This document shows, piece by piece, positions 11,841-12,198 of a DNA stretch of 36,404 nt. Positions within the stretch are counted from its first letter, which is position 1. Each line of letters opens with the position of its first letter. Location: assembly GCA_022750055.1 (NCBI GenBank), contig JAKIWL010000004.1, forward strand, positions 1 through 36,404, given 5' to 3'. Source of the stretch: Thermoplasmata archaeon (GTDB taxonomy: Archaea; Thermoplasmatota; Thermoplasmata; Lutacidiplasmatales; UBA184). The notes beneath the pieces are model-generated. The model had not been told where the DNA came from and did no database searches. It saw only the letters and a program-made list of their open reading frames with translations. Both the position numbers and the translations under genes were made by a program.

Positions 11841-11894
11841 CGGACTAAGTCGGGTCGCCACGGAACCCACGTCGGGGGAATGCGGGGGGCCGGA

Positions 11895-11926
11895 GTTTCC
11901 GGGGGTCGGCTCGAACCGACCCGCCT
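11895..11926 (-). other. tRNA-Leu(UAG) intron 2, T loop (position 59/60)
   Basis: A 32-nt segment that would fold into GGGTCGG/CCGACCC with a 6-nt loop. Its removal gives TTCAAA+T, a consensus T loop. The junction fits a bulge-helix-bulge with bulges AA|A and AC|T around the helix TTCA/GGAA, where one pair is A-G, so it is relaxed rather than ideal. The cut could shift by one base. Confidence 0.75.
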
Positions 11927-11974
11927 TTTGAACCGGCGAATGCCCTAGGCAACAGGGTTCTAAGCCCTGCCTCG

Positions 11975-12001
11975 GTGGCCCCGGCGCCGTTGGGCGCCGG
12001 A
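11975..12001 (-). other. tRNA-Leu(UAG) intron 1, D loop
   Basis: A 27-nt segment with a perfect 8-bp hairpin (CCGGCGCC/GGCGCCGG, loop CAAC). The junction is a full canonical bulge-helix-bulge: outer helix CTC/GAG, bulge AA|T, 4-bp central helix GGCC/GGCC and bulge AC|C. Removal restores a normal tRNA-Leu D arm. Confidence 0.85.
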
Positions 12002-12058
12002 TTGGCCGAGCTGGAGCACCCCCGCATCGGCACCGTGAAACCCCGGATCCCCGGAGAG

Positions 12059-12165
12059 TAGCCCCGGCAGGAATCCCGGCCACTTGGGAGTCCCTCCCCG
12101 AGAGCGTTCGAACCTGCGTCGCGAGATCCAGAGTCTCGCATGATTGGCCACTACACCACGGGGCT
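12059..12165 (-). tRNA. tRNA-Gln (anticodon CUG) with a T-loop intron
   Basis: The acceptor AGCCCCG (12159-12165) pairs perfectly with CGGGGCT, discriminator A at 12059. The D arm matches archaeal Glu/Gln tRNAs (GGTGTAG...CCAATCAT). The anticodon stem CGAGA/TCTCG encloses CTCTGGA, so the anticodon is CUG (codon CAG). The T stem GCAGG/CCTGC is intact only if 34 nt at 12073-12106 are removed; exons are 12107-12165 and 12059-12072, giving 73 nt and T loop TTCGAAT. No encoded CCA. A TATA box lies at 12192-12198. tRNA-Leu(UAG) follows 33 nt downstream on the same strand and probably shares its promoter. Confidence 0.9.
12073..12106 (-). other. tRNA-Gln(CUG) intron, T loop (position 59/60)
   Basis: A 34-nt segment. 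Removal joins TTCGAA to T, the exact T-loop consensus. The junction forms outer helix GCAGG/CCTGC, bulge AT|T, central helix TTCG/CGGG (two G-U pairs), bulge AA|C and inner helix GCT/GGC, with an apical GGGAG/CTCCC hairpin. Confidence 0.82.
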
Positions 12166-12191: not shown

Positions 12192-12198
12192 CATAAAC
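12192..12198 (-). promoter_or_regulatory. TATA box for tRNA-Gln/tRNA-Leu
   Basis: GTTTATG on the minus strand, 27-33 nt upstream of the first base of tRNA-Gln, the expected archaeal spacing. Confidence 0.6.

Follow-up and report, generated by a model that had tools for sequence, protein, structure and literature searches.

How a Thermoplasmata genome comes to carry a tRNA gene that yields a tRNA only after two segments outside the anticodon loop are removed is the question raised by a locus on contig JAKIWL010000004.1 (assembly GCA_022750055.1, Lutacidiplasmatales), analyzed here within a window of 36,404 nucleotides, the whole stretch of DNA under study. Reviews, cited here and below from selected passages, explain the permitted positions of tRNA introns by the splicing endonuclease of the lineage, and they assign to Euryarchaeota with α4 or α′2 enzymes one intron at the canonical position (PMC4090602, PMC4033280). 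Exceptions include non-canonical introns in three thermophilic methanogens of the Euryarchaeota (PMC3218864) as well as multiple introns in Methanopyrus and Methanothermobacter (PMC4033280). An earlier note on this DNA had judged that several non-canonical introns in one tRNA would be unusual in a Thermoplasmata-like genome; the pattern is wider than that note stated.

The best-supported reading is that a tRNA-Leu(UAG) gene of this genome contains two non-canonical introns, both of which would be spliced out. The full explanation, which is held with high confidence as far as sequence evidence reaches, comprises (i) a functional tRNA-Gln(CUG)-tRNA-Leu(UAG) pair, (ii) a Leu precursor in which the D loop and its intron would form one bulge-helix-bulge (BHB) and the T loop and the second intron another, as their conserved and covarying sequences suggest, (iii) presumed cutting of both pairs of bulges by the α′2-type endonuclease EndA, the gene for which is present, (iv) probable joining of the exons into an 86-nt tRNA-Leu(UAG) by RtcB, which is also encoded in the genome, and (v) T-loop introns that look old in Thermoplasmatota and would later have become numerous in this organism's own family, with 14 in this genome. 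As the BHB is a signal of the RNA itself, an α′2 enzyme of narrow specificity could in principle act at any position of a tRNA.

A tRNA-Leu(UAG) gene with two non-canonical introns

The gene and its parts are as follows.

11881..12025, minus strand: tRNA-Leu(UAG) gene in three exons separated by two introns (intron-aware scanner; same ends from a covariance model not trained on the gene; 30 genus sequences)
12002..12025, minus strand: exon 1, with the acceptor 5′ strand, positions 8-9, and the 5′ part of the D arm (scanner and genus alignment)
11975..12001, minus strand: D-loop intron, 27 nt, canonical BHB (scanner; inner-helix covariation in 30 sequences)
11927..11974, minus strand: exon 2, with the D stem 3′ strand, anticodon arm, variable arm, and T stem 5′ strand plus TTCAAA (scanner and genus alignment)
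11960-11962, minus strand: anticodon TAG, within exon 2
11895..11926, minus strand: T-loop intron at 59/60, 32 nt (scanner; inner-helix covariation in 30 sequences)
11881..11894, minus strand: exon 3, with T60, the T stem 3′ strand, and the acceptor 3′ strand plus A73 (scanner)

The proposal that 27 nt leave the D loop and 32 nt the T loop, with the anticodon loop uninterrupted, was made in the earlier note and coincides with the best solution of the intron-aware scanner (score 46.4). Three other solutions printed, at 41.2, 41.2, and 40.9, lie 5.2-5.5 points lower and differ by a shifted D-loop intron. The anticodon loop CTTAGAA is intact, and both introns lie elsewhere than 37/38, i.e., they are non-canonical. 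The D-loop junction combines an outer helix CTC/GAG, a central helix GGCC/GGCC, bulges AA^T and AC^C, and an inner helix of 8 bp. At the T-loop junction, with bulges AA^A and AC^T, the central helix TTC/GAA plus A57·G has three Watson-Crick pairs rather than four, which makes it only a near-canonical BHB.

Splicing in silico produces a regular 86-nt tRNA (85 nt plus N73) with A73 that ARAGORN accepts as tRNA-Leu(tag), in line with the product length predicted from the first reading. The unspliced precursor yields no tRNA in ARAGORN, and the gene is missing from the window calls of ARAGORN and of Rfam at the gathering score. It is recovered with exact ends (11881-12025) and a genome-wide E of 7.3e-8 by R1, a covariance model built from 11 other tRNAs of the same genome, all of them pre-tRNAs with T-loop introns. 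The observation of the earlier note is confirmed, and its reading as a tRNA-Leu(UAG) gene with two non-canonical introns is supported.

The tRNA set of the genome

RF00005 at E ≤ 10 marks 38 tRNA places in this 94%-complete genome of 1.52 Mb on 5 contigs. R1 adds four genes, namely the Leu gene of the window, Lys(UUU), His, and Pro(GGG), and BLAST with Pro(GGG) adds Pro(UGG) for a total of 43. The full set is taken here to be 46, so that Ala(UGC), Pro(CGG), and Trp make up the shortfall; none of the three was found by RF00005, R1, or BLAST in the 94%-complete genome. Two weak matches (L079 and L080) yield no tRNA, and two genes of the window that have no intron, Leu(CAA) and Ala(CGC), are called on the basis of ARAGORN and Rfam only. 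tRNA-Glu(UUC) (L016) has a C in place of the usual U at position 33, owing to which it was missed by the intron-aware scanner.

Twenty of the 43 genes harbor a total of 22 introns, 19 of which are non-canonical.

T loop, 14 introns: Leu(UAG), Gln(CUG), Asn, Gly(UCC), Glu(CUC), Arg(UCG), Arg(UCU), Ser(GCU), Ser(GGA), Ser(CGA), Asp, Ala(GGC), Lys(UUU), His
D loop, 5 introns: Leu(UAG), Lys(UUU), probable initiator Met, Arg(GCG), Pro(UGG)
Anticodon loop, 3 introns: Tyr, elongator Met, Leu(UAA)

The two double-intron genes found in the genome are Leu(UAG) and Lys(UUU). The latter and the probable initiator tRNA-Met are located as follows.

G000:C1:460154-460293, plus strand: tRNA-Lys(UUU) (L076), with introns of 31 nt in the D loop and 35 nt in the T loop
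G000:C1:389445-389547, minus strand: probable initiator tRNA-Met (L020), with a 28-nt D-loop intron and a weak outer helix

The D-loop introns of initiator Met, Arg(GCG), and Lys(UUU) each have an alternative placing within about one score point. Run without introns, ARAGORN accepts all 20 intron-bearing tRNAs after in-silico splicing versus 5 of the 20 precursors, all five with wrong ends; such tRNAs are therefore easily missed or misplaced in annotation, which is the practical side of these findings. With introns allowed, the program mislabels some genes, for instance calling L024 Ser (Leu(UAA) by the scanner) and L029 Pro (Arg(GCG) by the scanner).

The central helix has four pairs in 11 of the 22 introns and three in the other 11; that none falls below three of four reflects the scanner, which demands this minimum. 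The outer helix is complete (three of three pairs) in 17 introns and has 0-2 pairs in five, of which four lie in D loops and three have uncertain ends. In T-loop introns, the T stem serves as the outer helix, and T54-T55-C56-R57 forms the central helix with the intron. In this genome and its relatives taken together, 81 distinct T-loop introns show base 57 facing its partner as G-C (34), A·G (29), A-U (12), G·A (5), or A·A (1). The intron partner depends on base 57, with a Fisher p of 3e-12 that is only descriptive, given the relatedness of the species and the use of R1 to select many of these loci. In the 11 training pre-tRNAs of R1, 94.4% of 319 cells are paired, and 24 of 29 pairs show two-sided changes. 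None of 500 shuffles is as high on any measure, and slid controls reach 34.0-54.9%, a comparison biased toward the R1 structure because that structure was drawn from the same 11 sequences.

The splicing endonuclease

One EndA gene was found in the genome.

L034:1471-2529, minus strand: EndA gene, two PF01974 domains in one frame

The protein is of the euryarchaeal α′2 type, with two units fused in one gene and a predicted dimer state. Its second unit contains Y291, H299, and K330, which are taken to be catalytic, as in known EndAs, and are invariant in 10/10 aligned EndAs. The spacing from YG to the LSxxE helix is 8 residues in this EndA, likewise 8 in A. fulgidus EndA, and 18 in the A. fulgidus variant 3p1y, presumably the published CSL graft. 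By bit score, the best solved sequences are A. fulgidus EndA (1r0v) and 5x89, identified as Methanopyrus EndA in a table of PMC6379350.

Over 118 sequences, this spacing is 8 residues in 106, 9 in one, and 4-5 in two; six parse longer only via an earlier G and are 8 by eye, and the three unparsed comprise two with 8 and one that ends before the region. The counts come from two regular expressions that disagree for some members of family f35 (4 or 8, depending on the choice of G), overshoot for some others, and were settled by eye. No insertion of CSL or ASL size was seen in the 117 EndAs readable in that region, eight of them by eye. One gene with two PF01974 domains and no insertion corresponds neither to the (αβ)2 type of Thermoproteales (separate subunits, 15-18-residue CSL) nor to the ε2 type of ARMAN (three-unit chain, 11-residue ASL). 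A DARSGRVVT stretch, absent in A. fulgidus, was considered as a CSL and rejected: the graft of 3p1y lies elsewhere, and M. jannaschii EndA has residues there. Separately, residues about 104-126 of the first, non-catalytic unit form a conserved PRG..P.K.P..YW stretch, longer than in A. fulgidus, that is possibly an extra RNA contact.

EndA has a match in 19 of 21 genomes, this one included, and in 27 of 30 further genomes chosen for R1 matches, all 27 with two domains in one frame; three have no match. The first domain is below the cut-off in genome G337. On contig G389:C75, two EndA genes with equal scores lie ~5 kb apart in opposite orientation, where an assembly artefact is possible. Thirteen of the best 80 EndA loci listed belong to AcS or SubAcS MAGs with 55-66% identity, in a ranking from which the records nearest this genome may be left out. 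The nearest named loci are from uncultured Thermoplasmata MAGs, including AcS5-107, AcS4-93, and AcS5-58. These AcS genomes are assigned to Ca. Lutacidiplasmatales from acidic soils, with a GC content of 67-71%, in PMC9287336, a paper in whose main text the word "intron" is absent; the host clade is thus probably Ca. Lutacidiplasmatales.

The competing explanation that survives best holds that the α′2 gene alone does not cut non-canonical sites and that their cutting takes a further factor or a changed endonuclease. Broad intron sets do go with (αβ)2 or ε2 enzymes bearing CSL or ASL loops in the passages concerned of PMC12397907, and some sites in this genome have no good outer helix or no four-pair central helix. 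This explanation is nonetheless unlikely: a single EndA gene was found in the genome, no loop-size insertion was seen in the readable EndAs, and most introns have all three outer pairs and all have, by the scanner's requirement, at least three central ones. Cutting by EndA itself is the favored reading. The A. fulgidus and T. acidophilum enzymes are termed narrow (PMC6379350), and homodimeric enzymes are elsewhere given a wider reach that includes BHL-like motifs (PMC8707768). The conflict is with the stated distribution of introns more than with enzyme chemistry, since most sites are BHBs close to the canonical form, which an enzyme of narrow specificity could cut; the real test of the chemistry is posed by the sites with weak outer helices and by the A57·G helices.

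Conservation of both introns across the genus

BLAST with the Leu gene matches 36 of 41 genomes of the genus, this one included; the match covers the full length in 35 and is split into two pieces in one, and the five genomes without a match are 57-88% complete. In G031, the gene is present twice at full length, each copy on a different contig. All 30 Leu loci taken from the matches listed, the present one included, were aligned, and both introns occur in 30/30. The exons are almost fixed, whereas the introns diverge (24-35 nt for the D loop and 32-38 nt for the T loop). Most relatives have TTAGGA in the Leu anticodon loop, compared to TTAGAA here.

Inner-helix pairs were counted by distance from the splice sites and compared with strands shuffled among species (2000 shuffles). 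In the D inner helix, 204/240 cells are paired, compared with 61.0% on average after shuffling, and in the T inner helix 165/240, compared with 57.6%; no shuffle is as high in either case, and these counts are not probabilities because the sequences have common ancestry. In the T-loop intron, just the first two inner pairs are formed in 30/30, and of the 240 cells counted over eight pairs, 75 are unpaired. The strand that the intron contributes to the D central helix reads GGCC or GGCT in 30/30 with variable bulge bases, and base 57 and its intron partner are A·G in 30/30. Judged by this recurrence and by the covarying inner helices, the presence of the two segments is not due to chance.

The D-loop junction had been described as a textbook BHB. 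Its outer and central helices and its bulges stand as described; against the epithet, the minimum-energy fold of the free RNA is an internal loop, which beats the BHB by 1.6 (D) and 4.3 (T) kcal/mol in the isolated Leu arms. For the whole Leu precursor, the internal-loop fold is 7.5 kcal/mol better than the hand-drawn BHB structure, and minimum-energy folds of this precursor show no BHBs. The endonuclease may stabilize the BHB, but thermodynamics alone do not predict it.

Both segments fold as strong hairpins, which, together with the internal-loop minimum, would also suit stable expansion arms of the D and T loops that are kept in the mature tRNA. Retained segments would disturb the contact between the D and T loops. 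Such arms require neither a D central-helix strand conserved in all 30 sequences when the remainder has diverged nor covariation of base 57 with its intron partner, and the positions equal the archaeal intron positions 20/21 and 59/60 known from PMC4090602, all of which renders this alternative very improbable. That the gene is a decayed or inactive copy, the work being done by a normal tRNA-Leu(UAG), is scarcely credible even though standard tools (ARAGORN and Rfam) do not call it and a second copy could be missing from a 94%-complete assembly, given that the four remaining Leu isoacceptors were found with no second UAG one and that the exons have stayed almost invariant as the introns changed with compensation. 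Since BLAST with the Leu gene gives a single match in the assembly, no intact tRNA-Leu(UAG), which the earlier note named among the findings that would overturn it, was found elsewhere. The preferred reading accordingly stays that of a working gene with two introns.

The tRNA-Gln neighbor

A tRNA-Gln gene precedes the Leu gene.

12059..12165, minus strand: tRNA-Gln(CUG) gene, 33 nt upstream of tRNA-Leu (scanner; the ARAGORN call has a wrong 3′ end)
12073..12106, minus strand: T-loop intron of tRNA-Gln (59/60), 34 nt, central helix TTCG/CGGG (scanner)
12193..12197, minus strand: TTTAT, a TATA-like box that precedes tRNA-Gln and is perhaps a promoter

In 30/30 genus sequences, this one included, the Gln anticodon loop CTCTGGA is found at most 140 nt upstream of Leu, and in 23/30 TTTAT is found at most 230 nt upstream. 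The Gln gene matches a strict pattern in 15/30; in 14 of these, 27 nt separate Gln and Leu, as against 33 nt in the present genome. It is possible on this arrangement that the two genes share one transcript, with TTTAT as its promoter.

Relation to known systems

Crenarchaeota, among others, are known to carry introns at 20/21 and 59/60 and to have several in a single gene (PMC4090602, PMC8450103, PMC3218864), and non-canonical tRNA introns were described in Asgard archaea in 2024 (PMC11291895); each intron reported here is therefore of a known kind. Thermoproteales resemble the present genome in non-canonical positions, several introns per gene, BHB-type motifs, and many introns per genome (PMC8450103, PMC3218864, PMC4090602). 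They differ in that crenarchaeal enzymes are (αβ)2 with a CSL (PMC12397907, PMC4090602), as opposed to one α′2-type gene without a CSL here, and, unlike in Thermoproteales, 14 of the 19 non-canonical introns here sit at one place, 59/60. The genomes of the Asgard Atabeyarchaeia and Freyarchaeia likewise come from soil and are rich in non-canonical introns, with more than one intron in some genes, but these archaea belong to another phylum and carry introns in 92-95% of their tRNA genes (PMC11291895) versus 20/43 here.

Korarchaeum cryptofilum combines non-canonical introns with a homodimeric α2 endonuclease and was called the only such archaeon in PMC4033280 (2014); its enzyme is said to have the specific loop of the (αβ)2 type, whereas the EndA of this genome lacks that loop. 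A. fulgidus EndA (α′2) is alike in its two fused units and in the same 8-residue spacing at the CSL/ASL place, yet for Euryarchaeota with this type of enzyme few, single, canonical introns are described (PMC4090602), in contrast to the many and partly doubled introns of this clade. In the open-access literature searched (titles, the starts of abstracts, and selected passages), no report of non-canonical tRNA introns in Thermoplasmata was found, and earlier notice in GtRNAdb or elsewhere is possible. Within that literature, the kind of intron is ordinary, and what is surprising is the lineage, the number, and the pairing with this enzyme, of which no earlier description was found. Genomes with an α′2 gene and no known specificity loop have many T-loop introns and some D-loop introns, sometimes two per gene, and this opens the rule that links endonuclease and intron to a test that needs a single enzyme and only a few precursors.

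Spread of T-loop introns in Thermoplasmatota

R1 also matches intronless tRNAs, for which reason its counts use E ≤ 1e-10, a threshold set on this genome. Exactly the 11 training genes pass it here and no intronless gene does; the untrained T-loop-intron genes Lys (3.0e-10), His (1.2e-9), and Leu (7.3e-8) fall outside, so the counts miss genes. At most 13 candidates per genome were scored in the family and class, and at most 16 in the phylum. All 62 family members sampled have R1 matches, at least 5 to 12 in each; 41 of them, this genome included, belong to the genus and 21 do not. In the class outside the family, at least 110 of 238 genomes have matches, with one to four listed and mostly one. 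In a sample of the phylum, at least 48 of 243 have them, 21 of these outside the class. All 65 matches outside this genome that were read gene by gene at this threshold have a T-loop intron.

In families f8, f33, and f5, 8/8 matches read are tRNA-Arg(UCU), and in f6, 2/2 are Lys(UUU); f4, f25, and f28 have further isoacceptors too. The T-loop intron of tRNA-Arg(UCU) may be ancestral to the class. Outside this organism's own family, it measures 22-27 nt (L207-L211, L213, and L216). The double arrangement of Lys(UUU), with one intron in the D loop and one in the T loop, recurs in G010, G013, and G015 (L087, L082, and L084), of which G013 and G015 represent another family of the same order. In family f35, T-loop introns are present in 7/7 (G408) and 4/4 (G438) fetched genes of several isoacceptors. 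The simplest history consistent with these sequences would be an old T-loop intron followed by at least two later expansions.

On a narrow balance of probability, the phylum Thermoplasmatota is a broad exception to the pairing of intron and endonuclease, in which a loop-less α′2 enzyme serves many D- and T-loop introns, those with A57·G or weak outer helices included, and T-loop introns have multiplied at least twice (in this organism's family and in f35), partly by copying between tRNA genes. Within the present genome there is no good evidence for such copying, as 3 of 91 intron pairs resemble each other at p ≤ 0.01 (0.91 expected). In f35, the same level is reached by 3/21 pairs in G408 and 1/6 in G438. 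Like T-loop introns within one genome are those of L228, L229, and L232 (G408) and of L235 and L236 (G438), with stretches such as TGCATG... and CTGCAAC.... The likeness in f35 is as expected if introns were copied between genes, and the Arg(UCU)/Arg(CCU) pair may represent gene duplication.
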